Source: a virus
IMG/VR virus record: IMGVR_UViG_3300042868_007671
Coordinates: 1-42,704 of that record
DNA: 42,704 nt
Reading direction: 5' to 3' (one strand)
The notes under the pieces are model-generated. The model was not told the DNA's origin. It searched no databases and saw only the letters and a program-made list of their open reading frames with translations. Positions 1,977 through 39,334 of this stretch are shown here, piece after piece; position 1 is the first letter of the stretch; every line of letters starts with the position of its first letter. Position numbers and translations under genes: made by a program.

Positions 1977-2993
1977 ATGAGTAATTTATTTAAAAAAGCC
2001 GCAGTGTTTACAGATATACATTTTGGACTCAAATCAAACAGTGCATTACACAATGAAGATTGTTTGAATTTTGTCAAATGGGCCACTGCCAAAGCCAAGT
2101 CCGAAGGATGCGAAACTGCAATGTTTCTCGGCGATTGGCACAATAACCGTGCTTCGATCAATATCGTAACTTTGAATTACAGTTTGAAGGCACTGGAACA
2201 TCTTAACGAAAATTTTAGTCAGGTATTTTTTATTCCCGGCAATCACGATCTTTATTATCGAGACAAACGAGACATTCAAAGTGTTGAATGGGCTCGACAT
2301 CTTGCCAATGTGCATATATGCAACGATTGGCTTGAATCAGGTGATGTAATTATTGCACCCTGGTTGGTGGGTGACGACTACAAAAAGATACCCAAGCTCA
2401 AAGGCAAATACATGTTTGGGCACTTTGAGCTGCCGGGATACATGATGAATGCCATGGTTGAAATGCCAGATCACGGCGAAGTCAAACGTGAAGACTTTAA
2501 CAACTTTGATCATGTGTTTACCGGGCACTTCCACAAACGACAAACAAAAAAGAATATTACCTATATCGGCAACTGCTTTCCGCACAACTATGCCGATGCT
2601 GGCGACGACGATCGCGGAGTAATGATCCTTGATTGGGGGCAAGATCCAGTGTATCATGCTTGGCCCGATCAACCCAAGTACAGAGTTTACAACTTGAGTA
2701 CTGTGCTAGACAATCCCGATGCTTTGCTGACCACAAACATGCATACCAGGATCAATCTTGATATTGATATCAGCTACGAAGAAGCCAGTTTTATCAAGGA
2801 TACGTTTATGGAAAGCCATAAACTTAGAGAAATAAAACTGATACCGCAGCACACTGCTGAATTGGATACCATGGTTGCAAAAGGCAACATTGCGTTTCAA
2901 AGCGTGGATCAAATTGTATCAGGCCAATTGACCAACATCACCAGCGAACACTATAATACAAAGCTATTGCTTGAAATTTATCAGAACCTTTAA
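1977..2993 (+). CDS. gp47: Recombination endonuclease subunit gp47 (Mre11-like nuclease)
   Basis: 338 aa, about the length of T4 gp47. It is the metallophosphoesterase subunit of the gp46/gp47 complex, which resects DNA ends for recombination-dependent replication. All metal-binding motifs of the Mre11/SbcD family are visible: D13-I-H15, G52-D-W-H55, G88-N-H-D91, H149 in the GHFEL segment, and G183-H-F-H186. It starts at ATG 1977, 71 bp after gp55. Its stop shares a base with the ATG of gp46 (TAATG at 2990-2994), so the two subunits are translationally coupled, as expected for an obligate complex. Confidence 0.96.
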   Translation: MSNLFKKAAVFTDIHFGLKSNSALHNEDCLNFVKWATAKAKSEGCETAMFLGDWHNNRASINIVTLNYSLKALEHLNENFSQVFFIPGNHDLYYRDKRDIQSVEWARHLANVHICNDWLESGDVIIAPWLVGDDYKKIPKLKGKYMFGHFELPGYMMNAMVEMPDHGEVKREDFNNFDHVFTGHFHKRQTKKNITYIGNCFPHNYADAGDDDRGVMILDWGQDPVYHAWPDQPKYRVYNLSTVLDNPDALLTTNMHTRINLDIDISYEEASFIKDTFMESHKLREIKLIPQHTAELDTMVAKGNIAFQSVDQIVSGQLTNITSEHYNTKLLLEIYQNL

Positions 2994-4759
2994 TGATCAA
3001 AATAAAATCCGTAACTGCAAAAAACTTTTTATCAATTGGCAACGTCACACAAAGTGTAAACTTGGATCGCAGCGATCTAACGCTGATCCTAGGAGAAAAT
3101 TTAGATCTAGGTGGTGACGATTCAGGCGCCCGAAACGGTACAGGCAAAAGCGCACTGTTGAATATTGTCAGCTATGCGCTATACGGGCATGCATTGACCA
3201 ATATCAAAAAAGATAACCTGATCAACCGCACCAACGGCAAAGCCATGTTGGTCACTGTTGACTTTGAAAAAGATGGCATAGATTATCGTATTGAGCGTGG
3301 TCGCAAACCCAACATTATGAAATTCTATGTGGCCGATGTTGAACAGCAGGTTACAGACGAAAGTCAAGGCGATTCAAGGGAAACGCAAGCTGAAATTGAA
3401 AAATTGATATGCATGAGCCACGACATGTTTCAACACATTGTGGCTCTCAACACATATACTGCTCCGTTTTTGAGTTTGAAGGCCAACGAACAACGAACCA
3501 TTATCGAGCAGTTGCTGGGTATCACACTGCTGTCTGACAAAGCTGATGCTTTAAAAGAAAGATCCAGAGGCACAAAAGAAAGTATACAAACTGAAGAGCT
3601 TCGTATACGAGCAGTAACTGATGCCAATCGTCGCATCGAAGAACAAATTGCTGCACTAAAACGCAGACAGTCGTTGTGGATTACCAAACACAACGAAGAA
3701 GTTGATCAACTAGGAGTTGCATATGATCAGCTGAATCAAATCGACATCGACGAAGAACTTGCTGCACATCGTGCGTTGGATTTGTATAACAAAAAGACAA
3801 AAGACTTGGCAGATTTGACCAAGGCAATCAAACGAGCCGAACTGGATCTGGCAAGAGAAGAAAAATCTGGATCAACCCTGGTAACTGAAATCACCAGTCT
3901 CAAGAATCACACATGTCACAGTTGCGGGCAAAGCTGGCACAATGATCAACAAGATCTACAACTCAAAGACAAACAACATCTACTAGAACTGTGCGGCGAA
4001 CACATTGTTGAATACCGGGCACAGATACACGAATTAACCGCTGCAATCACAGACATCGGCAATGCAGGCGCACAACCGCAGGTGTTCTACGACAAAGAAT
4101 CCGACGCAATTGAGCATAGAAGTACACTGGCCAATTTGAAATCCAACTTGGAAAGAAAATTACAAGACCAGGACCCTTATGCAGAACAAATCGAAGACAT
4201 GACAAAAACTGCTCTTGAAGAGATCAGTTATGATGTGTTGAACGAGCTTACTAAGGTTCGTGATCATGAAGAGTTCCTGCTAAAATTGCTTACTAACAAA
4301 GACAGCTTTATTCGTAAAAAGATTATTGATCAGAACTTGAGTTACTTGAATACCAGACTCAGTTACTATTTGGAAAAAATAGGTTTACCACACCAGGTAT
4401 CATTTCAAAATGACCTGAGTGTGAGCATCACTGAATTGGGTCGAGACATGGACTTTGACAACTTGTCAAGAGGTGAACGCAACAGACTTATTTTGAGTCT
4501 CAGCTGGGCCTTCCGTGATGTTTGGGAAAACTTATATCAAAAAATCAATTTGCTTTTTGTCGACGAGCTGGTTGATTCAGGACTGGATGCCAGTGGAATG
4601 GAAGGGTCTCTTGCTATACTAAAGAAAATCAGCAGAGACAGCAAGAAAAGTGTTTGGTTGGTAAGTCATAGAGACGAACTGGTTGCTCGAGTAGAAAACA
4701 TACTAAAAGTTACAAAAAGCAACGGTTTTACAACTTACAGTACCGATAGTGAAAGTTAA
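2993..4759 (+). CDS. gp46: Recombination endonuclease subunit gp46 (Rad50-like ATPase)
   Basis: 588 aa, close to T4 gp46. This SMC/Rad50-type ABC ATPase pairs with gp47. In order: Walker A GARNGTGKS (residues 45-53); a long coiled coil (about 170-290); the zinc hook C308-H-S-C311, which dimerises the coiled-coil apex; the returning coil (about 330-440); the ABC signature LSRGE (491-495); and Walker B LLFVDE (520-525), with a SHRDE segment near the end. All catalytic elements are present, so it should be active. It overlaps the gp47 stop by one base. No clear intrinsic terminator follows; a 10-bp inverted repeat does. Confidence 0.96.
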   Translation: MIKIKSVTAKNFLSIGNVTQSVNLDRSDLTLILGENLDLGGDDSGARNGTGKSALLNIVSYALYGHALTNIKKDNLINRTNGKAMLVTVDFEKDGIDYRIERGRKPNIMKFYVADVEQQVTDESQGDSRETQAEIEKLICMSHDMFQHIVALNTYTAPFLSLKANEQRTIIEQLLGITLLSDKADALKERSRGTKESIQTEELRIRAVTDANRRIEEQIAALKRRQSLWITKHNEEVDQLGVAYDQLNQIDIDEELAAHRALDLYNKKTKDLADLTKAIKRAELDLAREEKSGSTLVTEITSLKNHTCHSCGQSWHNDQQDLQLKDKQHLLELCGEHIVEYRAQIHELTAAITDIGNAGAQPQVFYDKESDAIEHRSTLANLKSNLERKLQDQDPYAEQIEDMTKTALEEISYDVLNELTKVRDHEEFLLKLLTNKDSFIRKKIIDQNLSYLNTRLSYYLEKIGLPHQVSFQNDLSVSITELGRDMDFDNLSRGERNRLILSLSWAFRDVWENLYQKINLLFVDELVDSGLDASGMEGSLAILKKISRDSKKSVWLVSHRDELVARVENILKVTKSNGFTTYSTDSES

Positions 4760-4890: not shown

Positions 4891-5409
4891 ATGAGCGGAT
4901 CAAAAAGCAAATCTAAAGGAAACAGTTGGGAACGGACAGTATCTAAATTTCTGTCAGAACAACACAATGCATCCTTTATTCGTGCTCCGCACAGTGGCGC
5001 TTATATCGGTGGAACAAACTCATATAGAAAAGCAACACTCGACCAAAGTCAAGTCAAGAGTTTCAAAGGAGACATCGTTCCGCCAGAGGACTGGAAATAT
5101 TTCAATGCAGAAGCCAAAAACTATGCAGATTTTCCATTCCATCAGCTATTTCAAGGCCCAGTGTTGATCCTTGAAAAGTGGCTCGGTCAACTATTAGAAG
5201 TCGCTAACCCCGACGACATAAATGTGTTGATCATGAAATTTAACCGTAAAGGCAGTTTTATAGCCATACAACCGACACCAAGTCTAATACACAATCAAAA
5301 TCATCTAACATACAAATCATCCACATACGGCAGCTGGGTAATCCAGGACTTTGAGTCATTTTGGATTGCCAACACAGATACTATACAAAAACTAGCCACC
5401 AAGGCATGA
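4891..5409 (+). CDS. PD-(D/E)XK nuclease, Hjc-type Holliday junction resolvase-like
   Basis: 172 aa. The catalytic pattern of PD-(D/E)XK nucleases is visible: E14 in a KGNSWERTVSKFL helix, an FIRAPHSGA strand, K59-G-D61, and E74-A-K76 (E-x-K). An HQLF helix follows. Archaeal Hjc and related phage resolvases have the same spacing, with an N-terminal Glu helix, then Asp, then E-x-K. Resolving branched DNA would fit a position directly after gp47/gp46. The C-terminal half (a beta-rich IQPTPSL region and an FESFW segment) has no domain I recognise. It could also be a restriction-like or repair nuclease of the same fold. A TATAAT sequence lies just upstream of the start in the AT-rich leader. Confidence 0.65.
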   Translation: MSGSKSKSKGNSWERTVSKFLSEQHNASFIRAPHSGAYIGGTNSYRKATLDQSQVKSFKGDIVPPEDWKYFNAEAKNYADFPFHQLFQGPVLILEKWLGQLLEVANPDDINVLIMKFNRKGSFIAIQPTPSLIHNQNHLTYKSSTYGSWVIQDFESFWIANTDTIQKLATKA

Positions 5410-5892
5410 CATAACTTACAGTTCAGTTTGATCGAGGAACCTCGATCCCCATTGAGGATATGTGCGATACCATATTCGGACTTGGGTACTGTACGGTAGG
5501 CGCTAACGTAAGGCGCTAAACGATTCGGGCTCTGCGAAACAGATACAACCCGAGCACTCTCCGGCTAGCTAACTAGGGCAGGATGCAGTGTACCGTCATA
5601 ATCGAATCTAGAGTAGGGAGTACAGGATGACCGCTTCCGTGTGTAACAACACAATCTCTTATAGTTAGTGTGTAGAAAGCACTCAGATAATGCTTTGATC
5701 ACTTTTTGGCCTGTTGGGCCGAATTGTGATCTACATCTAGATAATATGTTCTAAAGAGTTAGAGTTAGATAACAGTTTCTAGATTAAACAGATTGGCGAA
5801 GCAATTAATTGCTGAGCGCAAGCGAAAGCAATAGACTAACGAAGTTAGTCTTGATAGTCGAACGCAAGTATAAATGCCATGTTGCGACTATA
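5410..5892. other. Gene-free, hairpin-rich intergenic region between convergent genes
   Basis: 483 bp with no credible ORF on either strand, but with many stems: GATCGAGG/CCTCGATC (5430-5447); TCGGG/CCCGA enclosing TCTG-CGAAA-CAGA (5525-5553); AAAGCA/TGCTTT (5676-5696); GATCAC/GTGATC enclosing TTTGGCC/GGCCGAA (5697-5731); the palindrome AGCAATTAATTGCT (5800-5813); AGACTAAC/GTTAGTCT (5833-5851); and ATAGTCG/CGACTAT (5854-5891). AGGCGCTAA is repeated at 5498-5506 and 5511-5519. Longer-range pairs are possible, such as ACGGTA (5493-5498) with TACCGT (5591-5596). The region is richer in GC and structure than other spacers here. It may encode a structured non-coding RNA, bidirectional terminators, or both. 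I found no tRNA, tmRNA, RNase P or group I intron signature. Confidence 0.6.
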
Positions 5893-6126
5893 TCAAAAGA
5901 ATGGTAATCTAGTTTCTTTGGTAGTTTCCAAGTTGCTCTTGATTATATCTGCAATGATAGATCTTTCTGTTTGACTCATTTCCAACAGTTCAGGGTATGT
6001 GATACCACCTCGCATGTACCAGCACATACGCAATACTTCTTCTTTTAAGGCTTTTACTTCGTTATCATAGCGATCCAAGAACGCTATGACTTCTGCGTCG
6101 GTATTTAAAGTTAAAAGCCTTGTCCG
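5893..6126 (-). CDS. -1 frameshift extension of gp26 (small baseplate-hub/tail-chaperone-like ORF)
   Basis: 77 codons in the -1 frame relative to gp26, ending in RLPFF. The segment contains a charged helix (NEVKALKEEVLRMC), then PELLEMSQTERSIIADII and a final helix. It has no ATG or GTG; the first standard start is TTG 6078, which lacks a Shine-Dalgarno. The open frame runs back without a stop past the T TTT TTC heptamer inside gp26 (6132-6126), with its first upstream stop at TGA 6144-6142. It is therefore best read as the C-terminal part of a gp26 fusion of about 355 aa made by programmed -1 frameshifting, as in the lambda G/GT and P2 E/E' tail chaperones. Independent initiation at TTG, giving a 61-aa protein in the place of T4-family gp51, is the alternative. 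Confidence 0.65.
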   Translation of the reverse strand, partial: RTRLLTLNTDAEVIAFLDRYDNEVKALKEEVLRMCWYMRGGITYPELLEMSQTERSIIADIIKSNLETTKETRLPFF

Positions 6127-6959
6127 AAAAAATTTGCGTAATCAAAGGTTAAATCTATTTTGTAAGTTTTGGTACAAGCCTGGCATGCCAGTTCCAGGCT
6201 GTCGGGCTTGGCGTGTTTGGTGTATTCGTTGATGCGTTCTTGTAGGCTCTTGATCAATCCGCTTTCGGCATTTTGCAAAAATTCGTTGATAAATTCTTCA
6301 TCATCTACACGATTACCATTGACCAACTCCACGTATTCTATACTTTGAGTACAAGCAGCTATACCAAATTTGTACAGTCGATCCATGCTTTCCGTCAGTT
6401 CTTTTGCTTTGTCTTCGGGTGACATGTTGACTGCATTCAACAAGTTTAGAATCTTTTGTTCTTCAAATTCCAACATGTTTGACTTGTTTACTGAAAAATA
6501 ATGTTGTGGTTTGAATCTGATTTTTAGATCCTTGTACAGCAGGGGTGTAGTAAAGTCGGGGCAGGTCAAACTGCTCAACGGACCGCTGAGTTCTATTTCG
6601 TGAGTGTTTTCGTCGTTGCAGTGAGCACATTTGCTGTCAAACTTCATGTTGTTGCCGTAGGTGGCAATTCTAATGGCAATCAACACAGCATCTACGTCTA
6701 CACTGGGCATGGCCCATGCATTTTTGATACTGGGGCAGCAGCTTTGTATCACATCAACAATGCCTTGTCCGTTCAACAGTGCGTCTGGAGTTCGCAACAG
6801 TATTTCGTCTTTGGTGCTCATTGGATAAATGGCAATTTCTCTGTTGACCGGCATATCTATTGCATCTTTGCCCCACCATTGCCCATCACTGGGCAATCTG
6901 AGATAAATTGCAGGCTGACGAAAATGTCCAGCAAGAGGATTGTGGCGCTGATTTTCCAT
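6111..6959 (-). CDS. gp26: Baseplate hub protein gp26-like (T4_baseplate family)
   Basis: 282 aa, longer than T4 gp26 (208 aa). The N-terminus carries YLRLPSDGQWW, followed by DEILLRTPDALLNG, a pattern typical of this family. Two possible zinc-binding CxxC pairs are visible: CAHC near residue 111 and CQAC near residue 262. It ends in the characteristic FDYANFFGQGF. gp26 acts in hub and tail-tip assembly. ATG 6959 has an AGGA ribosome-binding site; it is divergent from the tape measure gene and shares a 57-bp spacer with it. Its fourth- and third-last codon region holds a T TTT TTC heptamer in frame, the probable frameshift site. Position and arrangement suggest a tape-measure chaperone role, which is inference. 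Confidence 0.8.
   Translation of the reverse strand: MENQRHNPLAGHFRQPAIYLRLPSDGQWWGKDAIDMPVNREIAIYPMSTKDEILLRTPDALLNGQGIVDVIQSCCPSIKNAWAMPSVDVDAVLIAIRIATYGNNMKFDSKCAHCNDENTHEIELSGPLSSLTCPDFTTPLLYKDLKIRFKPQHYFSVNKSNMLEFEEQKILNLLNAVNMSPEDKAKELTESMDRLYKFGIAACTQSIEYVELVNGNRVDDEEFINEFLQNAESGLIKSLQERINEYTKHAKPDSLELACQACTKTYKIDLTFDYANFFGQGF
6126..6132 (-). promoter_or_regulatory. Candidate programmed -1 frameshift site, T TTT TTC
   Basis: Reading minus-strand gp26 in frame as AAT TTT TTC GGA, the last base of AAT with the next two codons forms the heptamer T TTT TTC, an X XXY YYZ slippery sequence in the correct phase. A -1 slip puts the ribosome in the frame that runs to 5893. Phage P2 uses the related T TTT TTG in its E/E' tail chaperone gene. 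I see no strong stimulatory hairpin just downstream. Confidence 0.65.
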
Positions 6960-7016: not shown

Positions 7017-10013
7017 ATGGATGAAACTAAACTAGCAGAAGCGATTGTCAATGCGTTGAACGCAGCTGACAATAATCGTGCTGATGCTGCTAAAGCTGCC
7101 GAAGAAATAAGAGCCAGACAAAAGAGTATCGAAAGTCTGATGAAATTCACCAAAGACCTTAAAGAATCTGCATCGGCAAGCAAGGTATTGGGCAACATAC
7201 TCAAAGAACAACGTCAGGAATACAAAAAAGTTGAAGACCAGCTGGACGAACTGGCAAAACAATATGAAAAAGCCAATACTTGGGAAGAGCGTAAAATTAT
7301 TGCAGACCGTGAGCGTGAGGTCAAACGTTCACAAGCGTCCAGTATTTTTACTACATCACTGACCAATGCTGGCGTTGGTCTTGTCAAGTTTGGTCGAGAT
7401 TTAGGCGACACCGTGGCCATGGCCGGCGGGCAACTGGTCAAAGGTCTACAACAAAACACCAACAGCATTGCACTCAGTGCCAATCTGTTGGGAGCAGGTG
7501 TTACTGCTGCAAATTCAGCAGCCCAATTGGTTGCTGGTGGCCTAACAGGTCTTGGAACCGCAGCAATGGTTGCAGGGGGCAAGCTTAAAATACTTGGTGT
7601 AGGTTTAACTGCAATAGGAACAGTACTTGGATTCACAGCAGCCAAAGCATCTCAGTTGGCCAAATTTGGTATAGAAGTCTTAAGTGTTGAATTGGAAAAG
7701 ACCGTTGCTGGATTCCGTGCCACAACCAATGCAGGAGCATTGTTCAGCGACGGATTAACAGGCATGCGTAATGCAGCTGGAGCAGCTGGACTTAGAGTCG
7801 ATCAATTTGCAAACGTTTTGTCAGCGCACAGTGCCGACTTGGCACAGTTGGGCATGGGTGTTACACAAGGTGCTATAAAAATGGGACGAGTTCTCAGCAC
7901 TGGTGGCGACACTATGAAACGACAGTTGTTGAATCTGGGCTACGGATTTGAAGAACAAGCTGGCCTGGTTGCAGAAACCATGTCCGCAATGCGAGGACTT
8001 GGTGGCCCGTTGGGTGCCACCAATCAAGAGATCGTGCAGCAGACCACCAAGTATGCAGAAAGTTTGCGATTGATCAGCGCAATCACTGGTGAAGATGCCA
8101 AGAAAAAGATAGAACAGGTAAGACAGCAGAATCAGATTCTTGCATTCCAACAATATTTAACCAGTAAGAGTCCAAAGCAACGTGCTCAAATTGAAGCTGC
8201 TATGGCTACCATGACTGAACTAGAAAAAAAGAATTTCAGAGACCGGGCGGTTCTTGGTACAGTTATAAACAAAGAAGGTGCAATTGCAGAAGCTACGGTC
8301 AGAGGATTGAGAAGCAAGGGCGAAGAACAATTTAGGCAGGCCGAGCTGGGATTATGGACAGCTGAATCAAATGCAAAGCTTAATGCAGAACGTGGCGAAG
8401 AGATTAAAAATAGCATATTGGCAAATAAAGATCTAGCCATTGCTGGTTATGTGCTAGGCGGGTCAATTGGTGAAGTGTCAGCAGGCATGTTAGATCTGGC
8501 TCAGCAAGCTACAGTTTATATGAAAGATGCAGTTACTGCTGCGGCTGATGCAGTAAAAGGGCAAAAAACAACAACTGATGAGTTAACTGAAAGTCTAAGA
8601 GGTGCCCAAATAGCTGCTCAAAAGCTAGCACAAGCATTGGAGAGACTCATTGATCCGTTCCTGGCGATGTATGCAGGTATAAGTGACAAAATGTTAACGG
8701 AAATTGAGTCCACATTTGAAGCAATACGTAAAGAAGCAACAGCTATAGCAAAAGGTGAAAAAGAAATACCTGGCAAAGATGCAATGACCAAAGTTGGCGA
8801 ATCGGCCAAAGAAGGCGCAACAGTAGGTACAATAACTGGTGCAGTTGCAGGCGCAGTTGTAACTGGAATAGCAGCTGGAGTTGCGGGCGGTCCTTTAGGT
8901 ATGCTCTTGGGTGGGCTTACTGGTGCAGCAATTGGAGGCTTAGGTGGCGGCACAGTTGGAGCACTTGGATTTGGTGGAGTCGAAGCAATTAAACAATGGT
9001 TTGACTCTCGAGAAGGCAAAGCATCAGGCGGTATTGCTAGAGGGCCCGGATCCGGATTTATTGAAAAACTACACGGAACAGAAGCTGTAGTACCACTGCC
9101 AGACGGCAAAACTATTCCAGTTAAAATGGATTTGGCAATTCCAGAATTTGGCGGACAGTCGGCAAAGCTGGATCCAGCAGCAATGCAGCCAATCAATGAC
9201 ATGTATGATAAAATACTGGACTCCAGTTTTATTCTCAAGGATGTGTTGCATTCTAGTGCAGACCGATTCAAACTGGCACTAGAAGCATCTGACTCACCAG
9301 GATTGGCTGCAAAATTTACAAACCTGGCAGGCATGTTTGTTGGCAGTGTGTTGGCAAAATTGCCAGACAGTAACACCGCACTGGCAACCATGACAGAACA
9401 GGAAAAACAGAATCTTAAAGATCGTGCAATGTTTGGTGCAGTTATCAACAAACAAGGCGCAATTGCAGAAGCCATGGTCGAAGGCCTAAGAAGCAAAGGC
9501 GAAGAAATTAAAAATAGTGTCATGGGCCAGAAAGACATAGCTATTGACGCAAATCAATTTGCACAGTCTATTGCTTCGCTACTTAAAGGCAATTCTGCTG
9601 CAGAAAAAATGGATGATCGCACAGCATCTTTGCTCAATGTAGCATCATCCCTGCAAGAGCAGTCAAAAAACAATACCGATACTGATTTCAACATAAACGA
9701 AGTTACAGGTCAGACTTTTAATACTGACCTGTTAAAAGTACAATGGTCTGAGTTGATAGAAGATTTAAAATCTAAAAATACTCAGACTGCAACATCGTCG
9801 TATGTGTCACCTGCATCACCGGCACCTGTTAACAGCAAAGAAATAGCAGACATGATTGGGCAGACTATTGCCCAATCAAACGAAGCACTACGCGGAGTTT
9901 TAGAACAACAAACAGATATCTTGAGATCAAACATGAACCGACTTGATGATTTGGTCAGTGCTGTTGACAGTGGAACAAATGTCAACAGACGTATGTATTA
10001 CGAATCTACTTAA
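7017..10013 (+). CDS. Tail tape measure protein (functional counterpart of gp29)
   Basis: 998 aa, much longer than T4 gp29 (590 aa). The tape measure sets tail length, forms the core of the tail tube and takes part in DNA ejection. Residues 1-105 are a highly charged coiled coil. Residues about 110-230 are Ala/Gly-rich and hydrophobic. Residues about 601-655 form a Gly-zipper, membrane-like stretch. SGGIARGPGSGF (about 670) followed by LHGTEAVVPL (about 685) is a motif pair common in tape measure proteins. A block near residues 397-475 recurs near 790-845 (DNA 8205-8446 and 9384-9556). The C-terminus is again coiled coil. It is expressed from its own late promoter and lies opposite the gp26-like chaperone candidate. 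A gp29 homologue and a different tape measure family cannot be told apart here. Confidence 0.82.
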   Translation: MDETKLAEAIVNALNAADNNRADAAKAAEEIRARQKSIESLMKFTKDLKESASASKVLGNILKEQRQEYKKVEDQLDELAKQYEKANTWEERKIIADREREVKRSQASSIFTTSLTNAGVGLVKFGRDLGDTVAMAGGQLVKGLQQNTNSIALSANLLGAGVTAANSAAQLVAGGLTGLGTAAMVAGGKLKILGVGLTAIGTVLGFTAAKASQLAKFGIEVLSVELEKTVAGFRATTNAGALFSDGLTGMRNAAGAAGLRVDQFANVLSAHSADLAQLGMGVTQGAIKMGRVLSTGGDTMKRQLLNLGYGFEEQAGLVAETMSAMRGLGGPLGATNQEIVQQTTKYAESLRLISAITGEDAKKKIEQVRQQNQILAFQQYLTSKSPKQRAQIEAAMATMTELEKKNFRDRAVLGTVINKEGAIAEATVRGLRSKGEEQFRQAELGLWTAESNAKLNAERGEEIKNSILANKDLAIAGYVLGGSIGEVSAGMLDLAQQATVYMKDAVTAAADAVKGQKTTTDELTESLRGAQIAAQKLAQALERLIDPFLAMYAGISDKMLTEIESTFEAIRKEATAIAKGEKEIPGKDAMTKVGESAKEGATVGTITGAVAGAVVTGIAAGVAGGPLGMLLGGLTGAAIGGLGGGTVGALGFGGVEAIKQWFDSREGKASGGIARGPGSGFIEKLHGTEAVVPLPDGKTIPVKMDLAIPEFGGQSAKLDPAAMQPINDMYDKILDSSFILKDVLHSSADRFKLALEASDSPGLAAKFTNLAGMFVGSVLAKLPDSNTALATMTEQEKQNLKDRAMFGAVINKQGAIAEAMVEGLRSKGEEIKNSVMGQKDIAIDANQFAQSIASLLKGNSAAEKMDDRTASLLNVASSLQEQSKNNTDTDFNINEVTGQTFNTDLLKVQWSELIEDLKSKNTQTATSSYVSPASPAPVNSKEIADMIGQTIAQSNEALRGVLEQQTDILRSNMNRLDDLVSAVDSGTNVNRRMYYEST
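8205..8446 (+). repeat. Internal duplication in tape measure gene, copy 1
   Basis: Encodes ATMTELEKKNFRDRAVLGTV, INKEGAIAEATVRGLRSKGE and, after a 25-residue interruption, EEIKNSILANKDLAI. Copy 2 (9384-9556) matches closely but lacks the interruption, joining RSKGEE directly to IKNSV. Confidence 0.85.
9384..9556 (+). repeat. Internal duplication in tape measure gene, copy 2
   Basis: Encodes ATMTEQEKQNLKDRAMFGAV then INKQGAIAEAMVEGLRSKGE and IKNSVMGQKDIAI. It is the shorter partner of the block at 8205-8446. Because the tape measure length sets tail length, such duplications would lengthen the tail. Confidence 0.85.
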
Positions 10014-14896: not shown

Positions 14897-16072
14897 ATGA
14901 CACAAGAACTATTAGAAAGCCGTTGGGGCGAGACTAAAGATGCCCTGCTTGAAGGCCTACAAGGTACCAAGCGCACTTCGATGAGCGTGATCCTTGAAAA
15001 CACTCGCAAAAACTTGATGGAAACAGCAACTGCTGGTGCTACCACTTCTGGTAACATGGCAACACTTAACCGTGTTATTCTGCCAGTTATTCGTCGCGTT
15101 ATGCCTACAGTTATTGCTAACGAAATCGTTGGTGTTCAGCCAATGACAGGACCTGTTGCACAGATCCACACTCTACGTGTTCGTTATGCTGACAATGCTG
15201 TTGCAACTACTGCTGCTGACGGCGCAACCGCTGGCGATGAAGCATTGAGCCCATTCCGTATTGCTACTGCATACTCTGGTAATTTAGGAACCAGCCGCGC
15301 TGATTCCACTTCTACACTAGAAGGTGTACCAGGTCGTCGTATCAACGTCCAAATCTTGAAGCAAGTTGTCGAAGCTAAAACTCGTAAACTAAGCGCACGT
15401 TGGACATTTGAAGCTGCTCAAGACGCACAAGCCATGCACGGTTTGGACGTTGAAGCAGAAATCATGGCTGCTTTGGCACAAGAAATCACAGTTGAAATCG
15501 ACCAAGAAGTTCTAGCTTCTTTACGTGCTCTATCTGCAACAGAAGCAACATACAACCAAGCTGCTGTATCTGGTACTGCTACATTCGTTGGTGACGAACA
15601 CGCTGCTCTAGCTGTTCAGATCAACCGTGTTGCTAACTTGATCGCTCAGCGTACCCGTCGTGGTGCTGCTAACTGGGCCGTTGTAAGCCCAACAGCATTG
15701 ACAGTATTGCAATCTGCTACTACAAGCGCATTTGCTCGTACAACAGAAGGTACATTCGAAGCTCCTACAAACACCAAGTTTGTTGGTACATTGAACGGTG
15801 CTATGAAAGTGTACGTTGACAGCTATGCCAGCGACACACAAGCTGTTCTAGTTGGTTACAAAGGTTCGTCTGAGGCCGATGCCGCAGCGTTCTATTGCCC
15901 ATATGTTCCGTTGATGAGCTCTGGCGTTGTACTAGACCCAGCAACATTCGAACCAGTCGTAGGCTTTATGACTCGTTACGGTTATGTTGAATTGACAAAC
16001 ACTGCATCGTCTCTAGGTAATGCTGGTGACTATGTTGGTGAAATTGCAATGCAAAACTTGAGCTTCCAATAA
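14897..16072 (+). CDS. gp23: Major capsid protein gp23
   Basis: 391 aa, short for the family (T4: 521 aa). Conserved blocks: GNMATLNRVILPVIRRVMP, TVIANEIVGVQPMTGPVAQI, the ARWTFEAAQDAQAMHGLDVE spine-helix region, and YCPYVPLMSSGVVLDPATF near the end with FMTRYGYVE. N-terminal residues 1-42 look like the propeptide: L40-M-E42 fits the gp21 cleavage rule just before the flexible TATAGATTSGN leading to the conserved core, which would give a mature chain of 349 residues. AAAGGA precedes the ATG, and a strong terminator follows. Its Ala/Thr-rich codons look highly expressed. Confidence 0.97.
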   Translation: MTQELLESRWGETKDALLEGLQGTKRTSMSVILENTRKNLMETATAGATTSGNMATLNRVILPVIRRVMPTVIANEIVGVQPMTGPVAQIHTLRVRYADNAVATTAADGATAGDEALSPFRIATAYSGNLGTSRADSTSTLEGVPGRRINVQILKQVVEAKTRKLSARWTFEAAQDAQAMHGLDVEAEIMAALAQEITVEIDQEVLASLRALSATEATYNQAAVSGTATFVGDEHAALAVQINRVANLIAQRTRRGAANWAVVSPTALTVLQSATTSAFARTTEGTFEAPTNTKFVGTLNGAMKVYVDSYASDTQAVLVGYKGSSEADAAAFYCPYVPLMSSGVVLDPATFEPVVGFMTRYGYVELTNTASSLGNAGDYVGEIAMQNLSFQ

Positions 16073-16135: not shown

Positions 16136-16209
16136 TATTGTTCGCTCGAAAGAGAGTTTATGCGGTCCCCGCCGCGTAGGCCTAGAACGCCAACATAAGG
16201 AGAAAACAA

Positions 16210-17442
16210 ATGGGAAGACCTCTAAACAAAAAATATTTTGGTAACCGTAATATCGGTACCACAGGCACCGGCGATGATAACCTGGGTGGAGAAGGTGTAG
16301 GTAGTGTAACAATCGATGCATCGGGTGGCTACACATCTGGATTACCAACAGCAACATTCAGTGTACCAGACTTAGGTGGTGTCGGTGGTGTACGTGCTAC
16401 TGGTATTGTTCATGGTAATGGATTATCAGCCGCTACTACAACTAACGGTACAGGATATCAAGTAGGCGATGTATTAACTGTAGTAGGTGGCACAAGAACT
16501 TCAGCCGCAACTTTTCCAGTTGCCAGAATTGTAGGTCTTGGTACACCTGGTATCACTGACGGTGGTACATTATACGATGTAACAGATGTAAACGTTGGCG
16601 ACCTAGTTACATTTACTCACGCTAATTTTCCAGTAACTCCATTAATAGTTCGTATTACCGCAGTTACTGGTAGCACTGCTACTGCCATTGCAGTTGAACA
16701 GCAGGGTATTTGGACAGGTACAGGAGCATTTCCAACAAGCATGGCCGACGGTGTCAACGGTTTCACTGCTACAACAACAGCAAGAAGCGGTGGCGATGAT
16801 AACGGTAATGGTCTAATATTAAGCTTCACCGGTTCAAACTGGGGCTTATACTCATTTGGTACAGTTGCAGTTCAAGGTGATTATACTGTAGCGGCAACTA
16901 ACCCAGTTAGCTTTACTGGTGGTACTGGTACAGGCGCTGCCGCAACTATCAATTTTGGTGTTAGTGGTATTGAAATTACAGAAAAAGGTTCTGGTTATAT
17001 ATCAGTGTCTGATGCGGCTATTACATTCGGTACTGTTGCCGACGGCGGCGCTGCCGCTACTCCGGTATTAACAACTGAAAACGGCACTCTATACAGTGCA
17101 GGTAATCAAGAGAATGCTATTGTTCCTTACGCAAAAACTACTTCAGGTGGTACAAGTAAAGTGGCAGATATTATTCGCCAAGCTAGTGCTACTCGCTTCC
17201 AGGTCAGAACAGCAGATGGAACAGCAGTTTGTGCGCTAAAAGCTAGTGCAGTTTCTGCACAAGGCGAAATGACTATCACAGCAACTGACAGTGATGGTGG
17301 CACATATTTTGTTACTAAAATTGGTAACGGAAAAGCAACTATTGCACAAGACACCGGAACTCAGTTTGCTGATGGCGCAAGCGTAAAGTGGGTACTTGGT
17401 TCAGCACAACAAGGTTATTCTGTCAAGTTAAGCAATGCTTAA
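16210..17442 (+). CDS. Virion structural protein, possible capsid decoration protein
   Basis: 410 aa, beginning MGRPLNKKYFGNRN, a start I associate with structural proteins next to gp23 in aquatic T4-like phages. It is Gly/Thr/Ala/Val-rich and beta-structured, with repeated GTGYQVGDVLTVVGGT and GSGYISVSDAAITFG segments typical of small beta-domains in phage surface proteins. The last 130 residues (VADIIRQASATRFQVRT onward) form a separate domain. It is framed by its own late promoter and terminator, so it is a single-gene transcript and probably abundant. This would fit a head outer or decoration protein. A tail fibre role is possible. No enzymatic motif is seen. Confidence 0.6.
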   Translation: MGRPLNKKYFGNRNIGTTGTGDDNLGGEGVGSVTIDASGGYTSGLPTATFSVPDLGGVGGVRATGIVHGNGLSAATTTNGTGYQVGDVLTVVGGTRTSAATFPVARIVGLGTPGITDGGTLYDVTDVNVGDLVTFTHANFPVTPLIVRITAVTGSTATAIAVEQQGIWTGTGAFPTSMADGVNGFTATTTARSGGDDNGNGLILSFTGSNWGLYSFGTVAVQGDYTVAATNPVSFTGGTGTGAAATINFGVSGIEITEKGSGYISVSDAAITFGTVADGGAAATPVLTTENGTLYSAGNQENAIVPYAKTTSGGTSKVADIIRQASATRFQVRTADGTAVCALKASAVSAQGEMTITATDSDGGTYFVTKIGNGKATIAQDTGTQFADGASVKWVLGSAQQGYSVKLSNA

Positions 17443-36331: not shown

Positions 36332-39300
36332 ATGACTATCAGATACTTACGACAACCGCCAGTTCTACAAAACTTTGCAAATGGTAGCAATGTTACTGCT
36401 ACTGTTCTAGGCACGACTCTAAGTATTACCAATGCTGGTACTAGCACGTCAACTACAACAGGAGCATTAAAGGTCTCGGGTGGTGTTGGCATAGCAGGTA
36501 ATTTACATGTTGACAACATCATTGGATCCAGTATTACTGGAACAATACAGACTTCGTCGCAGCCAAATATTACTCAAGTTGGTATTCAGAATGCACTAAC
36601 TGCTATAGACCTGACAGTAACTGGTAATTTGGTTCTGTCTGGCACACTAAACACAGTAAATGCACAGGATTCAACAGTTGATGATTCGCTGATACAGTTG
36701 CATACCAATGGAAACATACTCACCGTTGACGACGGCAGAGACATTGGTGTAGCGTTTAATTATTACAAAAGCAGTACTGGAGCCCAAACTGCATTTTTGA
36801 TTTGGGACAACTCTACCGGAAGATTAACATATTATTCCGACGCTACTGTAAGCAACGGTGGTGTTGTCAGCGGCAACCTTGGGGACATAGAAACAGGTGG
36901 ATTGATTGTTTCTGGCAATGTAAATGCGGTCAGTACCACAACTGGCGCTTTGGTTGTTGCAGGAGGCATTGGTGTTTCCGGTGCTGCACATCTTGAAAGC
37001 GTTTACACTGATACTATTTTTTATGCCAACGGAGCACCATATGGTGCAATGGGTGCAACAGGTGCACAAGGTCCTACAGGAGCAACAGGACCAAGCGGAG
37101 AAACTGGTAACGATGGCGCAACTGGCGCACCAGGAGTTCGTGGATTTACAGGTAGCATAGGATTAACAGGCGGCCTGGGTCCGTTGGGTTACACAGGAAG
37201 TCGTGGTAGCCAAGGATTGCCAGGAACTGCAGGCTCAGATGGCGCATCTGGTGCTACTGGTCCACGTGGTACAACAGGCGAAGCAGGTCCACCGGGCGCA
37301 ACAGGTCCGCGTGGTTTTACTGGTACAGATGGTGTTGACGGCGCAGCCGGTGCAACAGGACCAAGAGGTATAACAGGTGAAGCAGGGTCCCAAGGTGCCA
37401 CAGGTCCGCGTGGTTTTACTGGTACAGACGGTGTTGACGGCGCAGCCGGTGCAACAGGACCACGTGGTATAACAGGTGAAGCAGGACCGCAGGGGGCCAC
37501 TGGTAGTCAGGGAAATGCAGGTACCAACGGAGCCGATGGGTCAACTGGAGCAACAGGTCCACGTGGTACAGTTGGTGAAGCGGGCCCCCAGGGTGCTACT
37601 GGAATTCGTGGATTTACTGGTACCGACGGAGCTGATGGGTCAACTGGAGCAACAGGTCCACGTGGTATAACAGGTGAAGCAGGCCCACAGGGTGCAACCG
37701 GTAGTCAAGGAAATGCAGGTACCGACGGAGCTGATGGGTCAACTGGAGCAACAGGTCCACGTGGTACAACAGGCGAAGCAGGCCCACCGGGTGCCACTGG
37801 AATTCGTGGATCAGCTGGCTCAGATGGAGCAGACGGCGCAGACGGCGCAACTGGCGCTCGTGGTACAACAGGTGAAGCAGGTAGCACAGGTGCCACAGGC
37901 CCAAGAGGTTTTACTGGTACAGATGGTGTTGACGGATCAACTGGAGCAACAGGTCCACGTGGTATAACAGGCGCAGCAGGTATTCAGGGTGCCACAGGCC
38001 CGCGTGGTTTCACAGGCACCGACGGAGTTGACGGGTCAACTGGCGCAACAGGGCCACGTGGTATATCTGGCCTTGAAGGCTCAACAGGTCCAATTGGTTT
38101 TGTTGGTAGCCGAGGTGCAACCGGACTCAAAGGTGATGCTGGTGATCCAGGTGGTGCAACTGGTGCAACCGGATCCCGGGGCCCCACTGGCTTGCAGGGT
38201 GCAACCGGTGTAGAAGGCGCCACTGGTCCCAGAGGGTTAACAGGCGATCAAGGAATTCAAGGTTTTACTGGCAGTCGCGGATATACAGGAAGTATAGGCG
38301 CAACTGGTACAATACAGGATATTGTTTATCATACTGTCAACTTTGCAAACACTGATCCTTCTTTCAATTCTACTACTGGTGCATTTATAGTAGCAGGCGG
38401 TGTTGGCATTGGCGGTAATTTAAATGTTGCAGGAACCGAGTCCACAGTTCGTGGTAACTTGGGCGTATTTGGCAATCTGACAGTGCAGGGCAACACCTTT
38501 GTAGTCAACAGCAGAGAAGTAACCTACGCTGACAGCATATTAGAATTACACACCAGTGAAGATGGCGAACCGCTGATCACCGATGACGGACGAGACATTG
38601 GTGTAAAGATAGCTTACTACAAAGGCCAGCCTAGAACAGCATTTTTTGGTTGGAGTAACGAAACCGGCACTTTTACTTTTTACGAAGAAGGGTATGAAGT
38701 AAACGGCACTTTTGTTGGCGACTACGGTGATATACGTGCTCGTAAGCTTATTTCAACCGAAATCAACGGTTTTGCTCCTTTACAAGTTGCATCTCGCACA
38801 GAAGTTGTCAACCTAAATGCAAATTTTGCAAATATAGTAACTGGAAGTACTCAACCAAACATTACCAAAGTTGGTAATTTATCTAGTTTAACAGTCAACA
38901 CCAGTGTTACTGCTGACAGCATTTATGCCAATGGATATTTTGACCTGAGTGGCAACGCAATAACAGCACTCACTGTTGATCTGTTGAAGATAGGCGGAAA
39001 CGTAGCCAACACCGTATCCAGTGTTTCCACATTGAGATTCGATGAAGACAGCGGATTTGATGTGACCAATTTGGGCAATGGTATTGCCAAGATTGGTATG
39101 AACAGCACATTCAAATTTTGGGAAGTCGAAGGACAAGAAACACTGATTGCCAGCGGCTTGGACACTATTCAGATAGTTGCTGGTAGAGGAATAATACTAG
39201 AAACAAATGCAAACTCTGTTCCTAAAGCATTAACAATCACCGCAGACCCGTACATAAACTTGGACGGTGGATCGCCTACATCAGTATTTGGCGGAGTACC

Positions 39301-39334
39301 GTCTATTGATGGCGGCGGAGTAGTGATGATTTAA
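36332..39334 (+). CDS. Collagen-like tail fibre protein
   Basis: 1000 aa. Residues about 238-660 are Gly-X-Y collagen-like triplets dominated by GATGPRG, which would form a trimeric triple helix. A 99-nt higher-order repeat lies inside. On each side is the same globular module: residues about 106-195 ([45 protein letters not shown]) and about 722-810 ([44 protein letters not shown]). The N-terminus has [18 protein letters not shown], also found in the fibre at 41121. The protein ends [14 protein letters not shown], related to the DGGT(F/Y) ends of the next two proteins. It is an elongated adhesive fibre, probably with a conserved distal module. No enzymatic domain is seen. Confidence 0.8.
37241..38070 (+). 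repeat. 99-nt tandem repeat within the collagen-like region
   Basis: Units start at about 37241, 37340, 37439, 37538, 37637, 37736, then 37934 and 38033, each of 33 residues (11 Gly-X-Y triplets) of the type [19 protein letters not shown] followed by [10 protein letters not shown]. One unit is 36 residues and the next 30, so the 66-residue phase is kept. Copies differ in a few codons. Recombination between copies would change fibre length without breaking the frame. Confidence 0.88.

Follow-up and report, generated by a model that had tools for sequence, protein, structure and literature searches.

In phage lambda, the chaperones G and GT come from a locus beside the tape measure gene, where ribosomes slip by -1 close to the end of the first open reading frame and so yield both forms. 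Frameshifting in several groups of T4-like phages was reportedly described by Vladimirov, Gautam and Davidson in 2022, with T4 genes 26 and 51 named. A passage in PMC10885494 refers to tail assembly chaperones (TACs) of T4-like phages as already reported, citing Vladimirov et al. 2022 (Virology 566:9-15), and a passage in PMC12846349 that cites the same work mentions poly-T slippery sequences in the TAC-N genes of these phages. While frameshifted chaperones are thus already known for T4-like phages, the covarying long-range stem and the lineage described here may be new.

The window that we analysed is an entire IMG/VR virus record of 42.7 kb. It contains a T4-like portal gene, and its gene order is partly common to jumbo phages of the RaK2/GAP32/Phosso type. 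The nearest isolates are distant: full-length matches to gp26 are at most 30% identical, and in a megablast search of the first 25 kb of the window DNA similarity was found only in the capsid gene stretch, with Pseudomonas phages. An Rfam match to freshwater-2 RNA (RF02980; positions 16141-16212, plus strand; 52 bits, above the gathering threshold) directly follows the likely major capsid gene (14897-16072). Farther along, a 1000-aa open reading frame (36332-39334, plus strand), probably that of a tail fibre, has long Gly-X-Y repeats like those of collagen (GATGPRG...).

Gene gp26 (6111-6959, minus strand) encodes a protein of 282 aa that matches Pfam family PF12322 (T4_baseplate) at E=1.3e-12, above the cut-off, and phrog_150; it is the candidate short chaperone form, TAC-N. 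On the minus strand the gene ends ...GCA AAT TTT TTC GGA CAA GGC TTT TAA, with its stop codon at 6113-6111, and re-reading these codons confirmed the T_TTT_TTC heptamer at 6132-6126, in phase with gp26, that had been noticed in an earlier sequence-only reading of this DNA. The same reading had the -1 frame open to 5893 with a gain of 77 residues, and this too was borne out: starting at the heptamer and running to its stop at 5893 (5893-6132, minus strand), the frame encodes an extension (RTRLLTLNTDAEV...LPFF), the candidate TAC-C, of 77 residues past the two phenylalanines, and the fused product, TAC-NC, would have 355 aa. We propose, with a probability of about 0.9, that this locus makes a tail assembly chaperone in two forms, the short one from gp26 alone and the long one from gp26 with its -1 extension, through a programmed -1 slip on T_TTT_TTC that is aided by a downstream stem; here we infer the slippage, its frequency and the chaperone role. 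Between the extension and a convergent endonuclease-like open reading frame (4891-5409), positions 5410-5892 hold 480 bases without a clear gene, and a long gap past the extension is also seen in several relatives.

The junction was read in 17 isolate jumbo phages, located through gp26, and in 44 uncultured contigs, located through the extension protein; the latter count covers uncultured relatives whose junction lies on the contig. In-phase T_TTT_TT(C/T) followed by a homologous open -1 extension was present in 17/17 and 44/44, respectively, and this holds at the 20-30% identity of the farthest relatives; XacN1 carries T_TTT_TTT in place of T_TTT_TTC. Among 47 non-redundant gp26 genes (<85% similar) every one reads NNT_TTT_TT, ending in C in 46 and in T in one. 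The base preceding the phenylalanine pair is T in all 47 even though the residue that it helps to encode differs (N, D, S, T, H, R, Y or A). Given codon usage, T-ending codons followed by TTT in all 47 genes would arise by chance with a probability of about 1e-18, a figure that is only indicative because it counts the loci as independent, and that leaves out the preference for TTC at the heptamer (46/47, versus 25% of phenylalanine codons elsewhere). T_TTT_TTC is also found at the gp26-gp51 junctions of 83 cyanophage or KVP40-type loci. The sequence-only reading had proposed comparing the heptamer, its phase and the missing start codon among relatives; heptamer and phase were kept wherever the junction could be read, many relatives had no start, and in the jumbo-phage gp26 family no case was found of a second frame with a good start codon and Shine-Dalgarno sequence and no slippery run. 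The heptamer is missing in one distant ackermannvirid only, Vibrio phage SD25 (L069, about 2990-3050), whose gp26-type gene ends GTT TTT CGC TAATG and overlaps the beginning of a homologous-looking small open reading frame. That lineage may therefore use another slip site or coupling.

It had been stated earlier that no strong downstream stimulator was visible, but this was wrong. Folds of single sequences, a scan of every possible helix and counts of paired positions with covariation converge on a 10-bp stem that begins 4 nt past the heptamer in the window (4-6 nt across relatives). Its 5' arm (AAGGCUUUUA; 6112-6121, minus strand) reaches into the gp26 stop codon and its 3' arm (UAAAAGCCUU) lies at 6047-6056, minus strand; an inner hairpin (6064-6090, minus strand) is predicted inside the loop from the window sequence alone. 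The same stem appeared in single-sequence folds of many relatives, including Atu_ph07 and Phosso, and in 37 codon-aligned sequences no other of the 15,110 possible 8-bp helices paired as well. Over 36 sequences and 10 pairs, 81.4% of cells were paired, compared with 71.9% in shuffled alignments and at most 57% when the arms were slid. In the same 36 sequences double changes occupied 40 cells, against 17.9 in the shuffles, and the covariation score was 0.270, against 0.144 (sd 0.014); neither value was reached in any of 500 shuffles. The commonest changes in the 5' arm are synonymous in the -1 frame (CTT/CTC, TTA/TTG), while at the partner positions K becomes R, or V becomes S, T or A.

A second set consisted of 64 further sites obtained by a DNA pattern search of viral contigs, a few of which may overlap the first set; in this search the extension was present at 80/80 kept sites. 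Among the pairs left free by the pattern, 20/76 was a standard one at all 64 sites (GC 51, AT 12, GT 1), and strong covariation was found at 21/75 and 22/74; the covariation of the free pairs was reached in 0/2000 shuffles. The stem is missing in several distant relatives (L040, L043/L050/L053, L057 and L062/L064). RNAalifold predicted no consensus structure from the alignment of the first set (A2), perhaps because the loop of the stem is long, and among the enterobacterial jumbo phages (RaK2, CBB, PBECO4 and others; 11 sequences) no comparable covarying helix was found, the top helices having at most 2 double changes.

In cyanophages a compact 12-bp hairpin is found 4 nt past the same heptamer, with 97% of cells paired and a compensatory change in two contigs. 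Phage S-RIM8 (L070, 3181-3217) shows a possible other stem, GCCCTC/GAGGGC, where other cyanophages carry the GTATGTCTCA hairpin. The motif GAGGG precedes the heptamer by about 9 nt in S-SSM7 gp26, and the EGL that it encodes is common in cyanophage gp26 (L067, L071-L150); by analogy with dnaX, this motif could act as an internal Shine-Dalgarno stimulator. We consider it probable that the jumbo phage lineage, which takes in Agrobacterium and Sinorhizobium phages and many uncultured ones, uses a stimulator not described before, a covarying stem of about 10 bp that overlaps the gp26 stop region and encloses a loop of about 50 nt, and that the compact hairpin takes its place in cyanophages. The same slip site would hence have kept different stimulators across the T4-like radiation, with T4 having swapped the frameshift for two paralogous genes.

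The family relationships connect the extension with T4 gp51. PF12322 and phrog_150 contain T4 gp26 as well as its paralogue T4 gp51, and hhalign aligns the gp26 of the window with T4-type gp26 at an E value of about 1e-9. In hhalign, columns 39-73 of the extension also align with columns 219-253, in the C-tail of T4 gp51, at a score of 31.2, compared with a maximum of 19.8 after shuffling (0/100 column shuffles reach the observed score); the extension alone against cyanophage gp51 is barely above shuffles (21.2 versus 21.0). The gp51 annotated in cyanophages and KVP40-type phages (or the KVP40.0327 homologue) sits in the -1 extension of gp26. Membership of gp26 in PF12322 together with the match of the extension to the gp51 tail points to a TAC-N/TAC-NC tail assembly chaperone pair, which supports both the earlier suggestion of a chaperone and frameshift-chaperone pair and the link that had been drawn between a small gp51-like segment and gp51. 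By the same argument T4 gp26 would be the short form and T4 gp51 the long form, encoded by two genes. T4 gp26 (L020, 5803-6429, minus strand) ends KEFFELL with the codons TTC TTT, which look like the remains of a Phe-Phe slip site.

Structural comparisons were made with AlphaFold2 models of gp26 (pLDDT 86) and of the extension, which is modelled as a helical domain (pLDDT 88). VIA-align matched the gp26 model to the HK97 tail assembly chaperone 2ob9 (Z 6.4, 102/107 residues, rmsd 4.6), a match that is suggestive only because unrelated helical matches give similar Z values; the other matches were mostly partial and dominated by helices. A plain Foldseek search of the PDB gave nothing significant, and a sequence search of solved structures gave no gp26 relative, only two weak hits at chance level. 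The extension model has a weak structural match to the tape measure chaperone of Moogle. In BFVD, uncharacterised and often longer proteins of the jumbo phages phiEaH2, RSL1, RP12 and PaBG match the fold of the gp26 model at E<1e-4, and from the models it is possible that they are chaperones in those phages.

The downstream frame could instead be a separate gene of 61 aa, translated from the TTG at 6076-6078 (minus strand) or by re-initiation past the gp26 stop. This TTG is the first possible start in the frame and, as had been noted before, has no Shine-Dalgarno sequence. In a few relatives (L006, L011, L012) a start overlaps the stop or an ATG lies close by, and the annotation follows this, but the heptamer is kept even where such a start overlaps the gp26 stop. 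Many relatives have no usable start codon near the junction, a Shine-Dalgarno sequence is almost never present, and the 75-codon extension of PA5oct contains no ATG, GTG or TTG anywhere. Protein-level homology begins at FFR (FFRxRLL...), at the heptamer and upstream of the TTG. Translation from the TTG would leave out the extension's first 18 codons, and these are conserved. In the codons between the gp26 stop and the TTG, changes favour the third position to the same degree as in the remaining codons (78/49/150 versus 501/287/996 changes). The missing starts and the conservation upstream of the TTG argue strongly against a separate gene, which we rejected as highly improbable; the same conservation, with that of the heptamer and its phase, supports the programmed -1 frameshift proposed at the outset. 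The same fusion could also be obtained without ribosomal slippage if RNA polymerase slipped on the run of six T residues and added a base to some transcripts. The run is present, but six T residues followed by C are short for transcriptional slippage; the strict codon phase and the TTC ending fit tandem tRNA slippage, and an RNA stem that covaries and stands 4-6 nt downstream is the kind of signal that acts on ribosomes. We regard polymerase slippage, too, as having very little chance of being the explanation.

A different doubt concerns function rather than decoding, since the frameshift may be real and gp26 and its long form may be parts of the baseplate hub and not chaperones of the tape measure protein. 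The hub name is used by phrog_150 and by T4 records, and the CBB record calls its gp26 a 'structural protein'. A T4 review (PMC3004832), however, gives gp26 and gp51 as hub assembly chaperones, with gp51 absent from the particle, and the same review also cites genetic work that places gp26 in the hub. Unlike its neighbours, gp26 bears no mass-spectrometry note in the PA5oct record, and the attribution of T4-like TACs to Vladimirov 2022 in PMC10885494 likewise speaks against a hub component. We therefore think this alternative unlikely, and the chaperone reading remains the preferred one.

If gp26 and its extension are such a chaperone pair, most ribosomes would terminate at the gp26 TAA and yield TAC-N of 282 aa. 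The stem 4-6 nt downstream would pause ribosomes, a minority of which would slip back one base on T_TTT_TTC and continue to 5893, yielding TAC-NC of 355 aa. By analogy with lambda G and GT, TAC-N and TAC-NC may coat or hold the tape measure protein, which sets the length of the tail, during assembly of the tail tube and then depart. Their tape measure partner is probably encoded by the divergent neighbour of gp26 (7017-10013, plus strand; 998 aa), a candidate that matches phrog_167 weakly (E=3.8e-5). A large divergent neighbour of gp26 is also present in most of the isolate relatives, and that of Serratia phage BF matches three tape-measure families at about 3e-6.

The analysis names a likely tail assembly chaperone pair for many jumbo and uncultured phages, a large group in which the extension has so far gone under the name of hypothetical protein or been overlooked (RaK2, PA5oct). 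The recoding site with its covarying stimulator is open to direct testing, and the locus is a clear example of a frameshift pair for which T4 has two paralogous genes.

Compared with known systems, the locus shares with the T4-like TACs attributed to Vladimirov 2022 the PF12322 family, as far as this can be judged from the citing passages, as well as the poly-T slip site and the short and long forms; it differs in that the chaperone gene is here divergent from the putative tape measure gene. T4 itself has two paralogous genes in place of a frameshift. The gp26/gp51 loci of cyanophages and KVP40-type phages have the same in-phase T_TTT_TTC with gp51 just downstream in the -1 frame, but there the pair lies on the same strand as the next large gene and directly upstream of it; the cyanophage stimulator is a compact 12-bp hairpin, whereas the jumbo phage lineage has a long-range stem. 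In the TAC genes of Vandenendeviridae and Andersonviridae (PMC12846349) a -1 frameshift is likewise conserved near the 3' end of TAC-N, beside the tape measure gene, although on a GTTTTT motif and not on T_TTT_TTC. Lambda G/GT differs both in its heptamer, which is not the same, and in its arrangement, since the putative tape measure gene of the window is, unlike that of lambda, divergent from the chaperone gene.
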